Origin: Chloroflexota bacterium
GTDB taxonomy: Bacteria > Chloroflexota > UBA11872
DNA: 64,000 nt
Reading direction: 5' to 3'
Assembly: GCA_022820025.1 (NCBI GenBank)
Contig: JAJEGF010000025.1
Span: 209,522 to 273,521 of the forward strand
The position numbers and the translations under genes are program-made. Position 1 is the first letter of the stretch, and every line of letters begins with the position of its first letter. Below the pieces are notes generated by a model. It was not told the origin of the DNA, searched no databases, and saw only the letters and a program-made list of their open reading frames with translations. Positions 8,226 to 58,042 of this stretch are shown piece after piece.

Positions 8226-8709
8226 CGCGAGCGATGGCGATCACGCCGGTTCGGGAAATCTCCTCGATCGGGTACTCGGTAATCACGTCCAGGAACCGGT
8301 CGATCTTGGACTGCGCGCCGGTCATCTGCACGATCATCGACGACTTGCTCACGTCCACGATTTCGCCGCGGAAGATGTCGGTGATCTCGGCCAGACCGGG
8401 ACGCTCGGTGGCTTTCACGCGCACCTTGATCATGGCCAATTCACGCGTAACCGCCGGCGCGCCGGTCAGATTCCGCACGGAGACGACCTCGACCAGCTTA
8501 TAGAGCTGCTTCTCGCACTGTTTGACTTCCTCCGCCGAGCCTTCGACGGCAATCGTCATGCGCGAGTAGCCGGGCTCCTCGGAATGCCCGACGGCCAGGC
8601 TGGCGATGTTGAAGCCGCGCCGGCGAAACAGGCTGGCCACGCGGGTCAGGACACCAGGATGGTCGGCCACCGTGGCGACCAGCGTATGGGTTTCAGGCGC
8701 CCCGTTCAT
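8188..8709 (-). CDS. ilvN: acetolactate synthase, small regulatory subunit
   Basis: Regulatory partner of IlvB that carries valine feedback inhibition. It is 173 residues long. The N-terminal ACT domain (about residues 7-80) contains [20 protein letters not shown] and the Asn-Ile-Ala-Ser-Leu segment that forms the effector site; a second ACT-like half follows from about residue 85 ([18 protein letters not shown]). Its ATG overlaps the ilvB stop by four bases (ATGA), giving tight translational coupling and a matched subunit ratio. Confidence 0.95.
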
Positions 8710-10436
8710 CGCGGGTCTTCGATCACGCTGTTCACGCCGGTGCCCGGCACGATCATCGGGTAGACGTTCTCCACGCGGTCCACGTGCAGGTCCAGCACCA
8801 CCGGGCCGTCGTATTCGTGGGCCATGGCGATGGCGTCGTGCATCTCATCGCGCGAGCTGGTGCCCACGCCGTGCAGCCCGAAGGCCTGGGCGACCTTGGC
8901 GAAGTCGGGATTGTCCAGGAAGGCGCCCATGTAGCGGCCTTCGTAGAAGAACTCCTGCCACTGGCGGATCATGCCCAGGTGCGCGTTGTTGAGCACGGCG
9001 ACCTTTACGTTGATGCCCTCGGCGGCCAGCGTGTTGAACTCCTGGATGTTGATCAGCAGGCCGCCGTCGCCGGTGACGCACCAGACGTCCTGCGACTCGT
9101 CAGCCAGCTTGACGCCCATGGCGGCCGGAAGGGCGTAGCCCATCGGCCCCAGGCCGCCGGCGCTGAAGAACATGCGCGGGCGCTCGTACCAGAAGTGCTG
9201 CGATGCCCACATCTGGTTCTGGCCCACGTCGGCGATTACGCGCGCCTCGCCGCCGGAAATGTCGTAGATCGCTCGCACGACTTCCTGCGGCAGCACCGAG
9301 TCGGGGCTGTCGGGAATCTTCAGCGACGGATGGTCGCGCCGCCAGCCGTTCATCTGGTCCAGCCAGGGCGTGCGATCGCGCGATTCGATCAACGGCAACA
9401 GCTTCTGCAGGGTGAGCTTCAGGTCGCCGACGATCGGCACGTCGGTCTCCAGGACCTTGCCGATCTCGGCCGGATCAATGTCGATGTGCACGACCTTGGC
9501 GCCCGGTCCGAATTCGTCCTCCTTGCCCACGGCCCGGTCGTCGAAGCGGGTGCCGAGGCCGATGATGCAGTCGGTCTGGCGCATGGAGAAGTTCGCGTAG
9601 GCCAGGCCGTGCATGCCGAGCATCCCGAAGGAGAGCGGATGGGTCTCGGGGAAGGTGCCCACCCCATGCAGCGTGCTGACGACCGGGATGCTGCCGCGCG
9701 TGGCGAGCTGCATTAGCTCGTCGGCGGCACCGGATATGTCGATGCCGTGTCCGGCCATGATGATCGGGCGCTCGGCGGCGTTAATGACCTCGGCGGCCTT
9801 GCGGACCATCCGGGCGTTGCCGACCTTGGACGGCCGGTAGCCGCGCAGGTTCACCTGGTCGGGCGCGGTCTCGGTGGTGGTTTCCAGGAAGACGTCCTTG
9901 GGAATGTCGACGTGGACCGGGCCCGGGCGGCCGGTGGAGGCCAGGTGGAAGGCTTCCGACATCACGCGCGGCAGGTCGTCCACGTCCATCACCAGGTAGC
10001 TGTGCTTGGTGATCGGAATGGAGATTCCGGTGACGTCGGCTTCCTGGAAGGCGTCCGAGCCGATGGCCGGACGGGCCACCTGGCCGGTGATGTAGACCAC
10101 GCCCACCGAGTCCATGATGTCGTTGGCCATGCACGTGACCATGTTGGTGGCGCCCGGCCCCGATGTGCTGGTGGCCACGCCGACCTTGCCGGTGGCACGC
10201 GCGTAGCCGTTGGCGGCGAAGCCGGCGGCCTGCTCGTGGCGGATCAGCACGTGCCGGATGCGGTCCTGGTAGTGGTAGAGGGAGTCGTAGAACGGCAGCG
10301 AGGCGCCGCCCGGCATCCCAAAGATGACGTCGACGCCTGCGGCGAGCATGGCATCGCACACCACCTCGCCGCCGGTACGCGGCGTCTTGGGCGTGGCGGT
10401 GGAACCGTTGGTGGATTGGCCGTTGATCGCGGACAT
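8706..10436 (-). CDS. ilvB: acetolactate synthase, large catalytic subunit
   Basis: TPP- and FAD-dependent enzyme that makes acetolactate from two pyruvates, or acetohydroxybutyrate from pyruvate and 2-oxobutyrate. It is 576 residues long and complete. The TPP-activating glutamate is E68 in VLIRHEQAAGFAANGYARA. The Mg/TPP motif GDGGLLINIQEFNTLAAEG ends in the NN of AVLNNAHLGMIRQWQ, and GLGPMGYALPAAMG is also present. GGAG sits nine bases before the ATG. It is the first gene downstream of a T-box leader, so the whole ilv-leu-cimA run is probably switched by uncharged tRNA. Confidence 0.96.
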   Translation of the reverse strand: MSAINGQSTNGSTATPKTPRTGGEVVCDAMLAAGVDVIFGMPGGASLPFYDSLYHYQDRIRHVLIRHEQAAGFAANGYARATGKVGVATSTSGPGATNMVTCMANDIMDSVGVVYITGQVARPAIGSDAFQEADVTGISIPITKHSYLVMDVDDLPRVMSEAFHLASTGRPGPVHVDIPKDVFLETTTETAPDQVNLRGYRPSKVGNARMVRKAAEVINAAERPIIMAGHGIDISGAADELMQLATRGSIPVVSTLHGVGTFPETHPLSFGMLGMHGLAYANFSMRQTDCIIGLGTRFDDRAVGKEDEFGPGAKVVHIDIDPAEIGKVLETDVPIVGDLKLTLQKLLPLIESRDRTPWLDQMNGWRRDHPSLKIPDSPDSVLPQEVVRAIYDISGGEARVIADVGQNQMWASQHFWYERPRMFFSAGGLGPMGYALPAAMGVKLADESQDVWCVTGDGGLLINIQEFNTLAAEGINVKVAVLNNAHLGMIRQWQEFFYEGRYMGAFLDNPDFAKVAQAFGLHGVGTSSRDEMHDAIAMAHEYDGPVVLDLHVDRVENVYPMIVPGTGVNSVIEDPR

Positions 10437-52820: not shown

Positions 52821-53723
52821 CTACTCCCCCTTTGCGCCGGCGATATCGCGGCGCTGGAAGATCCAGAAGGACAGGCCGCTGAGGACCACGATGTAGGCCA
52901 GCGAGACGAGGAAGCCCTGCAGGGCTTCGGGTTGCATGGCGAGGACCGCGGCTTCGCCAAACGACTCGTCGCCGCCACCGGAAAAGAGCGCGCCGCCGGT
53001 GGTGCCCAGCCAGCCGCCGACCGCCTGGCCGAGGACGAAGCCGGATATCCGCTCGAACCAGTCGAAGTTGGTCAGGATGCTGAGCACGATGCCCTCGGCC
53101 ACGGCATAGCCGAGCGCCAGCCCGATAGCCGTGCCGGAGGACGTGGTAACGACGGCGAAGAACAGACCCAGCGCCACGTACGGCAGCAACCCAAAGATGG
53201 CCTTACCGAACGTGCGCCCCACCTCGACCCATTCCGCCGACTCGGCAAGCCAACTGCCGCCTTCCAATGTCAGCGAGGCGATGAAGCTGCTCAGCGCCAT
53301 GCTGAGGGCCCCGACGATCAGCGCGCCAACGCCCAGGAGGGCGACGAGCAGCAGCTTGGAGGCCAGCAATTGCCAGCGCCCGGCGCCGCGCGTCAGGACC
53401 GTGCGCACCGTGCCCCAGCCGTACTCGGTGCCGGTCAACGAGGCGGCCAGGATCATGATGAGGATGATGCTGAACCCGTGCGAGATCGCGAGCCCGATCA
53501 CCGCGTTGTTTGGAAAGGCCAGGAGTCCCAGGAAGTCTCCGCTGACGCTGGCGGTGCCGCCGTCGCCCAGCGTCACCTCGTCGCCGACGCGGAACAAGGC
53601 ATAGGCGCTCCAGAACGTGATTTGCAACAGCAGCACGCTGACGAACAGCAGAATCCAGGGCATGCGCCGGCGGCGCAGCTTGAACCACTCCCAGCGGGTG
53701 AGGGACAGGGTTTCAGCAATCAT
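52821..53723 (-). CDS. ABC-2 type transporter permease (second of a pair)
   Basis: A 300-residue membrane protein with about six hydrophobic segments, starting LTRWEWFKLRRRRMPWILLF (cytosolic basic coupling helix then TM1). FSIILIMILAASLTGTEYGW, then GTVRTVLTRGAGRW is the conserved ABC-2 loop. It is closely related to the next gene upstream (same length, LTRLEWYKLRHRRMPWILL), so the exporter may use a heterodimeric channel. It is the last gene of an ATPase-permease-permease operon; the substrate is unknown. The ATG at 53723 begins the conserved part. Confidence 0.85.
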   Translation of the reverse strand: MIAETLSLTRWEWFKLRRRRMPWILLFVSVLLLQITFWSAYALFRVGDEVTLGDGGTASVSGDFLGLLAFPNNAVIGLAISHGFSIILIMILAASLTGTEYGWGTVRTVLTRGAGRWQLLASKLLLVALLGVGALIVGALSMALSSFIASLTLEGGSWLAESAEWVEVGRTFGKAIFGLLPYVALGLFFAVVTTSSGTAIGLALGYAVAEGIVLSILTNFDWFERISGFVLGQAVGGWLGTTGGALFSGGGDESFGEAAVLAMQPEALQGFLVSLAYIVVLSGLSFWIFQRRDIAGAKGE

Positions 53724-53806
53724 TTGGGCCGTTCCCTCTTTTGATAAGGAGAGTTCAGGAGGTCGAGCGCAGCGAATGTGCGGGGCGCATTGTCCTGCAT
53801 GGGCCG

Positions 53807-54694
53807 CTACTCGCCCCTGGCGCCGGCGACTTCGCGGCGCTGGAATACCCAGAAGGCCGCGCCGCTCAGCACGACGACATAGGCCAGGAGGACAAGAAAT
53901 GACTGCGAAGCGTCCGGGAGTCCGGCGGTCGTCCCTGACGACTGGAACGACACGCCGGTTTCGGTCTGCACCCATCCGCTGACGGCTCGCCCCAGGATGA
54001 AACCGGCGACGCGCTGAAACCAGTCGAAACCGGCCAGCACGTTAACCAGGATCGACTCCACGAAGTAGTAGCCCAGCGATATGCCGATAGCGGCGCCCGA
54101 GGATGACGTCAGGACCGCCGCGAATACCGCCAGCGCAATGTAGGGCAGCATGCCGAAGACGGCTTTGCCGAACCCGATGCCAAGATCGGACCAGTCGGCG
54201 GAGGACGAGATCCAGTCTGCGTCCAGGGTTGCCAGGTCTATAGCGCTACTCACGGCTACCGACGCGGTGGCAACGATAAGGACGGCGACGCTGAGCCCGG
54301 CCAGCATCAGTAGCTTGGCGGCCAGCAGCGGCCAGCGACCCGTGCCCTTGGTCAGCGCGGTGCGCAGCGTGCCCCAGCCGTATTCCGTTCCGATCAGCGA
54401 CGCGGCCAGGATCATGAGCAGGATGCCGCCGAACCCGTGCGCGACGATGAGCCCGTTGGTGAGGCTGGTCGGAAAGGCAAACATCTCGAGAAACTGGTCG
54501 GTGGTCGAGATCGTGGTCGTGCTTGACGCTCCACCTTCACCGACCGCCACCTCGCCGCTACGGAACAGCGCATAGCTAGCCCAGAAGGCGATCTGCACCA
54601 GCAGCACGGCGAAACCCAACAGGATCCAGGGCATGCGGCGGTGGCGGAGCTTGTACCACTCCAGGCGGGTCAAGGGCAGAACCTGGGCAATCAT
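53807..54694 (-). CDS. ABC-2 type transporter permease (first of a pair)
   Basis: A 295-residue permease with six hydrophobic segments, including ILLMILAASLIGTEYGWGTL and YVVVLSGAAFWVFQRRE at the C-terminus. Its ATG overlaps the ATPase stop by four bases. It is the tandem paralogue of the gene at 52821, about half identical by eye. The two permeases probably pair with the ATPase at 54691. Confidence 0.86.
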   Translation of the reverse strand: MIAQVLPLTRLEWYKLRHRRMPWILLGFAVLLVQIAFWASYALFRSGEVAVGEGGASSTTTISTTDQFLEMFAFPTSLTNGLIVAHGFGGILLMILAASLIGTEYGWGTLRTALTKGTGRWPLLAAKLLMLAGLSVAVLIVATASVAVSSAIDLATLDADWISSSADWSDLGIGFGKAVFGMLPYIALAVFAAVLTSSSGAAIGISLGYYFVESILVNVLAGFDWFQRVAGFILGRAVSGWVQTETGVSFQSSGTTAGLPDASQSFLVLLAYVVVLSGAAFWVFQRREVAGARGE

Positions 54695-55605
54695 TCGGAC
54701 CGTTCTCCGTTCTCGCCGGTGATGTCCAGGAAGTACTGCTCGAGGGAGACCTGGAGCGGGGCGATTTCGGTGACGTAGACCTCGGACTTGCTGAGCAGGG
54801 CGGTCAACTCGGACGAGCGCTCGTGCGCGATCGTGACTACCAGCGCGTCGTCTTCGGCGCTGGCGGACTCCACCTCGTCCGACGCTGTCAGGATCTCCAG
54901 GGCCTTGGCGTCGTCGGTCGTCCGCAAACGCACCTGCTCCTGCGGACGCAGCAGGTCGGCCACGTCGCCCTGCACCACCAGGCGCCCCTTGGCGATGATG
55001 GCCACGCTGTCGCAGACCTGTTCGACCTCGTTGAGCAGGTGGCTGGAGAGCAGGATCGTGCGGCCTTCGGATCCGAGATCGCGAATCAGGTCGCGAACTT
55101 CGGCCATGCCGGAGGGATCCATGCCGTTGGTGGGCTCGTCCAGCAGCAACAATTCGGGATCGCCCAGCAGCGCGTAGGCCAGGCCCAGGCGTTGCTTCAT
55201 GCCGAGCGAGTAGGTTTTAAAGGCGTCGTTCGCGCGCCCGGCCAGCCCCACGAGTTCCAGCAACCGGTCCAGTTCGCGGGAGTCGTTGCGACCCATGACG
55301 CCCTGGAAGTAGGCGAGGTTGCGGCGGCCCGAGAGGTAGGGATAAAACGCCGGCGTTTCCACGATCGCGCCGATGCGGCGCAGGGCGTCCCTGCCGCCGC
55401 CGTTAGTTCCCAGCAGGCTGAAGCTGCCGGACGTGGGCCGGACCAACCCGAGCAGCATGCCCATCACGGTGGTCTTGCCCGCGCCGTTGGGGCCGAGCAG
55501 TCCGAACACGTGGCCGCGGGGGACCTGCAAGGAGAGTTGGTCCACGGCCAGCACGCGGCCATAGCGCTTGGTGAGCGCCTTGGTTTCAATCACGGTGTCG
55601 GTCAT
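54691..55605 (-). CDS. ABC transporter ATP-binding protein
   Basis: A 304-residue ATPase driving the two permeases downstream. Walker A is GLLGPNGAGKTTVMGML, the Q-loop region GAIVETPAFYPYLSGR, the signature YSLGMKQRLGLAYALLG and Walker B LLLLDEPTNGMDP, followed by the switch His in LSSHLLNEVE. The C-terminal ~80 residues are the extension typical of the bacitracin/antibiotic-resistance-like DRA subfamily. The ATG at 55605 is used; the longer frame is not conserved. Confidence 0.93.
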   Translation of the reverse strand: MTDTVIETKALTKRYGRVLAVDQLSLQVPRGHVFGLLGPNGAGKTTVMGMLLGLVRPTSGSFSLLGTNGGGRDALRRIGAIVETPAFYPYLSGRRNLAYFQGVMGRNDSRELDRLLELVGLAGRANDAFKTYSLGMKQRLGLAYALLGDPELLLLDEPTNGMDPSGMAEVRDLIRDLGSEGRTILLSSHLLNEVEQVCDSVAIIAKGRLVVQGDVADLLRPQEQVRLRTTDDAKALEILTASDEVESASAEDDALVVTIAHERSSELTALLSKSEVYVTEIAPLQVSLEQYFLDITGENGERSE

Positions 55606-55769
55606 GGCCGAGGTCTCCTGGGCAAGCTGCGCATCTGACGCTCCTTGTGCGGCGTTCACGCGGCTCACTGTAGGCGGGGCCGCGCAATGCGCCATCGCCC
55701 GAACGGCGTAATTTCGGGCCCGCGGGTCGGCCGAAAGGACTACGAACGTTCGGTCGGCGGCCGATGAAT

Positions 55770-56333
55770 TTAGCTATAGGCGGCGCCATCGATGATGGCG
55801 AGAAGGTTGCCGGAATCCGGCCAGTCGCGTTGGTGGGCGCCGACGCTGATGAAGCGGATACGGCCCCCGGGGTCGACCAGGAACACGCTGGGACGCGCGA
55901 TGTTCCAGGACTCGAAGTTGGCGCGAACGTAGACGCCATAGCGGCGGATCGCGGCGCGATCGGGATCGGCCAGGAGCGGGAACGGCAGCGTCAGGCCTCT
56001 CGCGAAGCGCCGCACGCCCTCCGGCCCTTGACCGTAGACGCCGACGATTGAGACCTTGCGCCGCTCCCATTCCTCCAGCTCGCCCGCGAGCTGCGCCAGA
56101 TATCTCCGGCAGTTCGGTCACCAAGTATGGCGGAGGAAGATCAGGAGTTGCCACTGGCCGGAGGCGGGGATTTCACAGAGTTGGTCGGGGTCCGAAGCGA
56201 GCGGCAGGGTGAAGCGGGGCGCGGGGTCACCGAGCCCGAGCGTTTCCGAGCCCTCGGCACGCGGCAAGGCAGGACTTTCGTGGGTGTCTGGGCGAGTGGC
56301 GCAAACCTGAGTATCGCAATGCCGCGCGCCCAC
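55770..56333 (-). CDS. selenoprotein redoxin (peroxiredoxin-like, UxxC), in-frame UGA read as Sec
   Basis: Read through the in-frame TGA at 56118-56120, this is a 187-residue thioredoxin-fold protein. It opens with LGLGDPAPRFTLPLASDP, then WQLLIFLRHTWUPNCRRYL with Sec72 and Cys75 at the place of the redox CxxC, followed by RKVSIVGVYGQGPEGVRRFA, PFPLLADPDRAAIRRYGVY and ARPSVFLVDPGGRIRFISVG: the full AhpC/TSA order. The frame is intact for 115 codons after the TGA. A hairpin with a G-containing loop sits at the distance expected of a bacterial SECIS. The GTG start lies 12 bases after the permease gene. Its likely role is thiol or peroxide reduction. The alternative is a nonsense mutation at a former Cys. 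Confidence 0.75.
56076..56093 (-). promoter_or_regulatory. candidate bacterial SECIS hairpin
   Basis: On the minus strand CAGCTCG-CGGG-CGAGCTG forms a perfect 7-bp stem with a 4-base loop. It starts 25 bases after the TGA, with its loop 32-35 bases after it and a G among the first two loop positions. These features fit the general bacterial SECIS rules (loop 16-37 bases downstream, G in the loop). Confidence 0.55.
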
Positions 56334-56345
56334 GGCAGCCGGAAT

Positions 56346-57155
56346 TCAGGCGACGATGTCGCGGCGCCGGAAGATGACGAGCGAGATGGCCGCCGTTACG
56401 ACGGCGGTGACGCCCAAAACCAGCGTGTCGCGCCAAATGAAGTCGCCGGGCCCGAGCTGATCCACCGGGTTCCAGTAACCGAAGATGCTGGCTTTCTCCA
56501 GCCACTCCAGGTTGGAGGCAATGTCCGCCACGAGCAGCAACACGAACATGATCACGATGATGCCGGCGGCCAGACCATAAGTTCGACCGGGCTGCAGGAT
56601 CAGCGTGGCCAGCAAGAGCCCGCCGCCGGCGATGGCCAGCGTGAAGACCAGCATCTGCAGGTGGACCAGCAGCAACTCGAGCGCGCCCAACTCAACCTCG
56701 CTGGCCCAAATGGCCGCGCCGATCAAAATCGCAACGTACGAAGCGGCAATCACCACGGTGGTGAGAATCAGCAAGGCCGCGATGCGCGATAGCAGGAAGC
56801 GCGTGCGGCTGATCGGCGCGGACAGAAGTACATCCAGCGTGCCGGACCCGAAGTCGCGCGTAATCAGCCCGGCGCCGAACCAGATACCGAAATAAGCCAG
56901 CACCAGCATAAGGGTGCTGGTGTACTGCGAGCTGAAGTAGCTGTAGAACGTGTTCTGCTGGGCCGTCGCCCCCGCAACCTGGGTGCCGCCAAAGACCTCG
57001 CTGCCACCCATGGCCTGGGTGAGGTCGTCCCAGTTTTCGGCAAACAACGGCCACAGGCCCATGATCAGCAGGCCCAACGCGAATATCCCGAAGTCAAACC
57101 ATAAGGTCGCGAGCCGCCGGGTACGCAGGGTCACGCGGATGATGCTGAGGTTCAT
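56346..57155 (-). CDS. ABC-2 type transporter permease
   Basis: A 269-residue membrane protein with six hydrophobic segments, starting LSIIRVTLRTRRLATLWFDF. Segments include the conserved ARDFGSGTLDVLLSAPISRTRF-like TRDFGSGTLDVLLSAPISRT and TLVLGVTAVVTAAISLVIF near the end. The ATG overlaps the ATPase stop by four bases. With the ATPase it forms a simple exporter of unknown substrate; the selenoprotein redoxin follows directly. Confidence 0.88.
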   Translation of the reverse strand: MNLSIIRVTLRTRRLATLWFDFGIFALGLLIMGLWPLFAENWDDLTQAMGGSEVFGGTQVAGATAQQNTFYSYFSSQYTSTLMLVLAYFGIWFGAGLITRDFGSGTLDVLLSAPISRTRFLLSRIAALLILTTVVIAASYVAILIGAAIWASEVELGALELLLVHLQMLVFTLAIAGGGLLLATLILQPGRTYGLAAGIIVIMFVLLLVADIASNLEWLEKASIFGYWNPVDQLGPGDFIWRDTLVLGVTAVVTAAISLVIFRRRDIVA

Positions 57156-58042
57156 GCACCACCCTCGCTTTCGTAGTGCTGCAGGAACGATTCCTCAAAG
57201 CTGGGCTCGTCGGTCTCCAGATCGACCACCGTGTGCCGCGCCAGCGCCTTGATGACCGGATCGATTGAGCCGCTGACCTCGAAGCGCGCCGTGCCGTCCT
57301 CAACGCTGATGTCGCTGACGCCCGGGATTGTCAGGTCGGCGGGCGCCTCGCCGTCGAAGGTGACGGTGACGCGCCGGACACGCGCGACGCTGAGATCGGC
57401 GACGGTGTCCACCTGAACCAGCCGCCCCAGGCGCAGGATGCCGACGCGATCGCAGAGAGCTTCGGCCTCGGACAGCACGTGCGTGGAGAGCAGCACGGTG
57501 CGGCCCTCGTCGCGCAACTCGCTGATGATCTTGCCGAACTCCTGCTGCACCAGCGGATCGAGACCTCGCGTTGGCTCATCGACGACGTAGACAGGCACGT
57601 CCTCTTGCAGCGCCCGCACCACGACGACCTTCTGGCGGTTGCCCATCGAGAGGTCGCCGATCTTGCGGGACGTGTCAAGTTCCAGCCGCTCGGTCAGCTC
57701 GTCGCGCCGCTTCCGCGGCGCGTCGGTCAGGCTGCCGAAAGTGTCCAGATACTGCCCGACCTTCATGAACTCATAGAGGCTGCTGTCGCTGGGTAGGAAG
57801 CTCATGGCGTCGCGGGCGGCGGGACCGTCGCGGTGAACATCGAGCCCCAGCACCTCGGCGCGTCCGCGCGTGGGCCGCATCAGCCCCATCAGCAGGCGGA
57901 TGGTGGTGGTCTTGCCGGCGCCGTTTGGCCCGAGATAGCCGAAGATCTCACCGGTACGAACTTCCAGGTTCAGGTCGGTGAGGGCCTCAACGTCGCCGTA
58001 GTGCTTGGTCAAGCCCCAGGTCTGGATGGCGATGTCGCTCAT
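57152..58042 (-). CDS. ABC transporter ATP-binding protein
   Basis: A 296-residue ATPase. Walker A is GYLGPNGAGKTTTIRLLMGL. The signature LSMGNRQKVVVVRALQ has NR where GQ is common. Walker B is PVYVVDEPTRGLDP, followed by LSTHVLSEAEALCDRVG. The C-terminal extension (TVTFDGEAPADLTIPGV) is typical of drug or lipid exporters. It is the first gene of a three-gene set: ATPase, permease, redoxin. Confidence 0.93.
   Translation of the reverse strand: MSDIAIQTWGLTKHYGDVEALTDLNLEVRTGEIFGYLGPNGAGKTTTIRLLMGLMRPTRGRAEVLGLDVHRDGPAARDAMSFLPSDSSLYEFMKVGQYLDTFGSLTDAPRKRRDELTERLELDTSRKIGDLSMGNRQKVVVVRALQEDVPVYVVDEPTRGLDPLVQQEFGKIISELRDEGRTVLLSTHVLSEAEALCDRVGILRLGRLVQVDTVADLSVARVRRVTVTFDGEAPADLTIPGVSDISVEDGTARFEVSGSIDPVIKALARHTVVDLETDEPSFEESFLQHYESEGGA

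Follow-up and report, generated by a model that had tools for sequence, protein, structure and literature searches.

A redoxin gene on the minus strand of the window (the whole stretch of 64,000 nucleotides analysed, from a Chloroflexota bacterium) is a well-supported candidate for a bacterial selenoprotein, in which a UGA codon at the active site would be read as selenocysteine (Sec) ( Table 1 ). Its product is very probably a 165-residue Sec protein, which would serve as a cytosolic peroxiredoxin (Prx)-like oxidoreductase and would be made together with an ABC-2 exporter. The computed evidence comprises coding on both sides of the UGA, conservation of the UGA itself, the presence of the selenocysteine machinery, constraint on the RNA following the codon, and conservation of the operon.

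Table 1. Features of the Sec-redoxin locus, given in window coordinates and in the order of transcription.
Feature	Coordinates	Strand	Remarks
ABC transporter ATPase (PF00005)	57152..58042	-	Overlaps permease start
ABC-2 permease (PF12679)	56346..57155	-	Directly upstream of redoxin, 78 nt gap; stop at 56346
Candidate Sec-redoxin gene	55770..56267	-	TTG start, 165 codons + TAA; PF00578; predicted active site WUPNC
Putative Sec-encoding TGA	56118..56120	-	Codon 50 of 165
Partner Cys codon TGC of UxxC	56109..56111	-	Residue 53, three codons past TGA
Hairpin 1	56094..56111	-	Loop GAUA; compensatory changes; UGA-to-loop 13 nt
Hairpin 2, candidate SECIS core	56076..56093	-	7 bp, loop CGGG, 31 nt UGA-to-loop, -10 kcal/mol

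A redoxin gene interrupted by one TGA

The minus-strand frame from 56333 to 55770 contains a single internal stop, the TGA at 56120-56118, and is otherwise open to a TAA. When this TGA is read through, the product matches AhpC-TSA (PF00578) with an E-value of 1.8e-24 over profile positions 2-123 of 124, scoring 86.5 bits against a gathering score of 26. Both the frame and the domain match agree with the preliminary description, in which two frames of the same phase, split by one TGA, join into a complete AhpC/TSA redoxin with TWUPNC; the frame that it placed at 55770-56333 is real, but lies on the minus strand. The start was set too early, at a GTG (56333), and is most likely the TTG at 56267: all 11 close orthologues have TTG or GTG at this codon, the remaining 19 of the 30 relatives taken in have ATG or GTG there, and the 22 codons 5' of it evolve like non-coding sequence (pN/pS 0.97).

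Within the gene, pN/pS is 0.134 before the TGA and 0.145 after it (raw proportions, 55 pairs of 11 orthologues), bearing out the earlier claim that the downstream frame is conserved. At 67% GC, the 115 codons 3' of the TGA would have a chance of about 7% of staying open, so that the open frame alone is weak evidence, and homology, conservation and machinery carry the case for a selenoprotein.

Predicted fold and active site

An AlphaFold2 model built from 25 sequences has a pLDDT of 84.8 and is weak at residues 1-7 and 115-122. Structural comparison with VIA gave Z 22.1 to Bcp4 (rmsd 2.5 over 155 residues) and Z about 20 to AhpE and AhpC2, while the Foldseek TM-score of the query was about 0.8 for peroxiredoxins versus 0.66-0.67 for ResA. 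The 25 sequences show no variation at Arg46, Trp49, the Sec column, Cys53, Arg125 and Pro126.

Canonical peroxiredoxins carry the motif PxxxT/SxxC together with a catalytic Arg. The redoxin departs from this motif, its Pro, Ser and Arg positions being held by R46, U50 and P126. This follows from alignment to the thiol peroxidase 2cx3, which sets Cys53 at the peroxidatic position, Sec50 at the Thr/Ser, Arg46 at the Pro and Pro126 at the Arg. In the alignment to ResA, Sec50 coincides with the leading Cys of CxxC, and Pro126 lies close to ResA's Pro. In the model, a peroxiredoxin scaffold carries a WUxxC active site resembling that of thioredoxin, with Pro126 taking the cis-Pro place; this combination favours a cytosolic thiol:disulfide (possibly peroxide) oxidoreductase. 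By eye, no N-terminal signal or anchor is visible in the redoxin sequence. In the proposed reaction Sec50 would act as the nucleophile and Cys53 would resolve it via a selenenylsulfide, the Sec50/Cys53 site reducing disulfides or peroxides.

The main rival to thiol:disulfide chemistry, which is the preferred reading, is that the selenoprotein acts mainly as a peroxidase, that is, as a peroxiredoxin proper. Peroxiredoxins dominate both structure lists, among the matches listed, and by sequence the best match among proteins of solved structure is a thiol peroxidase (BCP); yet Cys53 alone stands at the peroxidatic place, the other three Prx positions being differently occupied, and a mainly peroxidatic role appears possible but somewhat unlikely.

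Conservation of the UGA in relatives

At E 1e-15 or better, a search of the host's order recovered a redoxin match in 20 of 24 genomes. In all 30 matches, the most divergent at about 45-47% protein identity, the TGA occupies the same place in WUxxC, and the random stops in relatives that the preliminary description had named as counter-evidence were not seen. A set of named loci gave the same picture (TGA in 24 of 24); these are the relative-encoding members of 40 stretches that fitted the search pattern, all from Chloroflexota MAGs, and they overlap the order set and are not independent of it. Among 400 genomes of the phylum, 30 reach E 1e-25 or better, giving 40 matches in total, and one TGA is present in 39 of these. 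The lone match without TGA (genome G059) has SxxT at the site, neither Sec nor Cys. A comparison with homologues bearing Cys at this position, as had been proposed, thus returned TGA or, once, Ser, and no close Cys homologue was found among the 40 phylum matches; in more distant relatives, of which ResA is an example, CxxC aligns with UxxC. In locus L116 the residue at the site is Ser.

If the TGA were a true stop, the gene would be a pseudogene or would encode a truncated protein of 49 residues. Translation table 11 treats TGA as a stop, and the list of open reading frames divides the frame there, a splitting by which the gene is easily missed. Against this, purifying selection is equal on either side of the TGA, the site is identical in all 30 matches, and invariant residues run past it to W149-P150. 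Conservation refutes the pseudogene or truncation reading, which was rejected as very unlikely.

Apparent additional stops in some relatives were traced to ordinary termination. The extra TGA of G018 and G007, considered as a second Sec, is the in-frame stop of the upstream permease, and in G012 the extra TAG terminates the gene itself, 3 residues short of the query end, and is not an internal stop. In L039 (near 1504) and L040 (near 1513) the permease's TGA is in frame with the redoxin start; it was taken as an ordinary stop, and its read-through would fuse permease and redoxin.

Selenocysteine machinery

Genome G000, to which the window belongs (3.63 Mb in 92 contigs, 93.6% complete), encodes selA (510 bits), selB (347 bits), selD (372 bits) and tRNA-Sec (selC) with anticodon TCA. 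The selB gene is on the same contig, 20 kb from the redoxin and about 12 kb beyond the window end, and selD carries one TGA at its GAGUACK motif. The check suggested in the preliminary description, which regarded absence of these genes as grounds against a selenoprotein, therefore found all four. Across the order, selA is above cut-off in 23 of 24 genomes; the sole exception, G023, is also without a redoxin match. Another SelB-like match, a partial one (196.8 bits, covering positions 1-261 of 581), occurs at the very start of its contig (G000:C20:5-877, L010). Machinery, conserved TGA site and coding constraint on both sides support the suggestion that the gene likely encodes a selenoprotein, in which the UGA at codon 50 would be decoded by SelB with Sec-tRNA-Sec.

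Genome-wide reassignment of TGA, for example to Trp or Gly, could draw on the finding that 7 of 14 AhpC-TSA matches in the genome contain a TGA. However, ABC_tran, the control family, has an in-frame stop in 0 of 58 matches of the same genome, which is a strong argument against a change of code; several relatives' genes terminate in TGA, and the genome has selA, selB, selC and selD. The control family refutes reassignment, which was rejected as extremely improbable. An error of sequencing or assembly turning TGC or TGT into TGA, for which the draft state of the genome would speak, was likewise rejected and has a negligible probability, since the same TGA recurs in 20 of 24 genomes, down to the divergence given above, and in every named locus.

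RNA hairpins following the UGA

The preliminary description placed a single SECIS-like hairpin 25 bases past the TGA. A hairpin is indeed found there, hairpin 2 starting 24 nt after the TGA, but it is one of two in tandem, set back to back. The published bacterial SECIS model has a loop of 3-9 nt, a stem of 4-16 bp, G in the first two loop positions, 16-37 nt from UGA to loop and an energy <= -7.5 kcal/mol (PMC13188914). Hairpin 2 satisfies every one of these constraints, and hairpin 1 misses the model on spacing only (13 nt vs 16-37).

The two-hairpin fold, which RNAalifold also yields, leaves 97.8% of cells paired over 25 sequences (23 distinct). Eleven cells are altered on both sides, versus 2.4 in shuffles (0 of 500 as high), and compensatory changes occur in 2 pairs only, a count reached by 74 of 500 shuffles; the shuffles behind both figures ignore the relatedness of the sequences. 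Over codons +1 to +14, synonymous change is low in the orthologues (0.081 vs 0.269; as low in 18 of 20000 random sets and 4 of 112 contiguous windows) and in the g1 paralogues (0.113 vs 0.356; 6 of 20000 and 4 of 94), but in g2 the depletion falls short of significance (0.092 vs 0.183; 1644 of 20000 and 16 of 91). Over 8 TGA genes of the genome that were folded, the energy z was about -2 or lower in 3 and unremarkable (z > -1.4) in 5. It is proposed that decoding would be aided by the RNA hairpin lying just 3' of the UGA, within the coding sequence.

The Rfam search gave no SECIS at gathering score. Elsewhere in the window, a T-box leader (RF00230; 10642-10864, minus strand; 98.5 bits vs gathering 93) lies upstream of a gene for a thiamine-pyrophosphate enzyme, perhaps acetolactate synthase (8706..10436, minus strand).

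Linkage to an ABC-2 exporter

As first described, the redoxin lies directly behind an ABC exporter operon, with permease and ATPase upstream on the same strand. ATPase, ABC-2 permease and redoxin follow one another on one strand in 14 of 24 named loci (L064-L073, L083-L086), which belong to two genera and whose permeases are as little as about 42% identical. The other 10 (L074-L082, L087) have no match to the ATPase or permease within 3 kb, and no ABC-2 permease of this kind was found in the flanks of about 1.5 kb of 10 distant loci of the phylum. In the redoxin tree (39 rows, several on long branches), unlinked WULSC copies of the host genus group with linked WULSC genes of the sister genus (100/100), placing the linkage in both redoxin lineages and suggesting that one copy probably moved. 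A second ABC-2 cluster (52821-55695, minus strand), with an ATPase and two permeases, follows the redoxin; within 3 kb flanks it stands beside some relatives (L064, L066, L071) and not others (L065, L068, L070).

The conserved linkage suggests that the redoxin would be co-produced with the exporter, probably for the same process. The exporter is of ABC-2 type and NCBIfam gives no substrate for it. Tentatively, ATPase, permease and Sec-redoxin could form a selenium-dependent export module, in which the Sec-redoxin might keep the exporter, or a thiol- or peroxide-bearing cargo, redox-correct in the cytosol. The conserved linkage offers a testable partner for a selenoprotein class of mostly unknown function.

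A lineage that looks rich in selenoproteins

Six of the 7 TGA redoxins of the genome have the TGA at a UxxC site (FWUGVC, TWUPNC, TWULSC, HWUSHC, FCUINC, HWUPHC). The seventh is a peroxiredoxin with a TPGU site (TxxU type; G000:C51:62530-62901, L007), whose TGA is followed by a strong hairpin (z -3.08). Together with selD these make at least 8 selenoprotein candidates. Half of the AhpC/TSA matches thus carrying TGA, the host lineage looks selenoprotein-rich, and the redoxin points to an order of Chloroflexota whose genomes would each encode several Sec-redoxins. In the rows for the order, among the matches listed, the internal stops are single TGAs only. The search of the host genome for the CMD/AhpD family gave no match, and that for the thioredoxin family gave 3, none with an internal stop. 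By way of comparison, most selenoprotein-rich bacteria, meaning those with at least six such genes, fell into three other groups in a 2016 survey (PMC5029168), and three selenoproteins were counted in Chloroflexi (PMC1794560).

Comparison with known systems

Selenoproteins of this general kind are already catalogued, and on domain and motif the redoxin would add a member. A 'Prx-like thiol:disulfide oxidoreductase, PF00578, UxxC/UxxU' is listed, as predicted with high confidence, in Table 1 among 119 prokaryotic selenoprotein families/subfamilies (PMC13188914), and 225 'Prx-like 1' UxxC selenoproteins were counted in ocean (GOS) samples (PMC2398784). The word 'unusual' in the preliminary description is therefore only partly apt: it does not suit the UxxC redoxin of PF00578 as such, but it does suit the conserved linkage to an ABC exporter, since literature searches, mostly at listing level, found no description of an ATPase/ABC-2 permease/Sec-redoxin operon. 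'Chloroflex' is absent from the main text of PMC13188914, PMC2398784, PMC9312934 and PMC12013277, and no literature joining sponge, Chloroflexota and selenocysteine was found. What stands out is that the exporter linkage is conserved and that this Chloroflexota lineage looks rich in selenoproteins.

The redoxin shares the PF00578 domain and the UxxC motif with the listed Prx-like selenoproteins (type protein WP_010940744.1), of which domain and motif make it a putative member; it differs from them as a Chloroflexota member in an ABC-2 exporter operon. Its best NCBIfam match is the SelL-related redox protein NF040769 (E 3.5e-17), but its 62.6 bits are below the cut-off of 120, placing it outside that family by this model. 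With Peroxiredoxin Q/BCP and AhpE it has in common the fold (VIA Z about 20-22) and the position of Cys53, whereas it is without the canonical Pro, Thr/Ser and Arg and would carry Sec at the Thr/Ser place. With the ResA/TlpA thiol:disulfide oxidoreductases it shares the WCxxC position and a Pro at or near the same place, and is set apart from them by a lower Foldseek TM-score and by its lack of a visible N-terminal signal/anchor. Finally, in the SAO system, Sec proteins including a thioredoxin-like one are joined to ABC transporter parts (PMC13188914), but the ABC subunits of SAO, as described there, are themselves selenoproteins.
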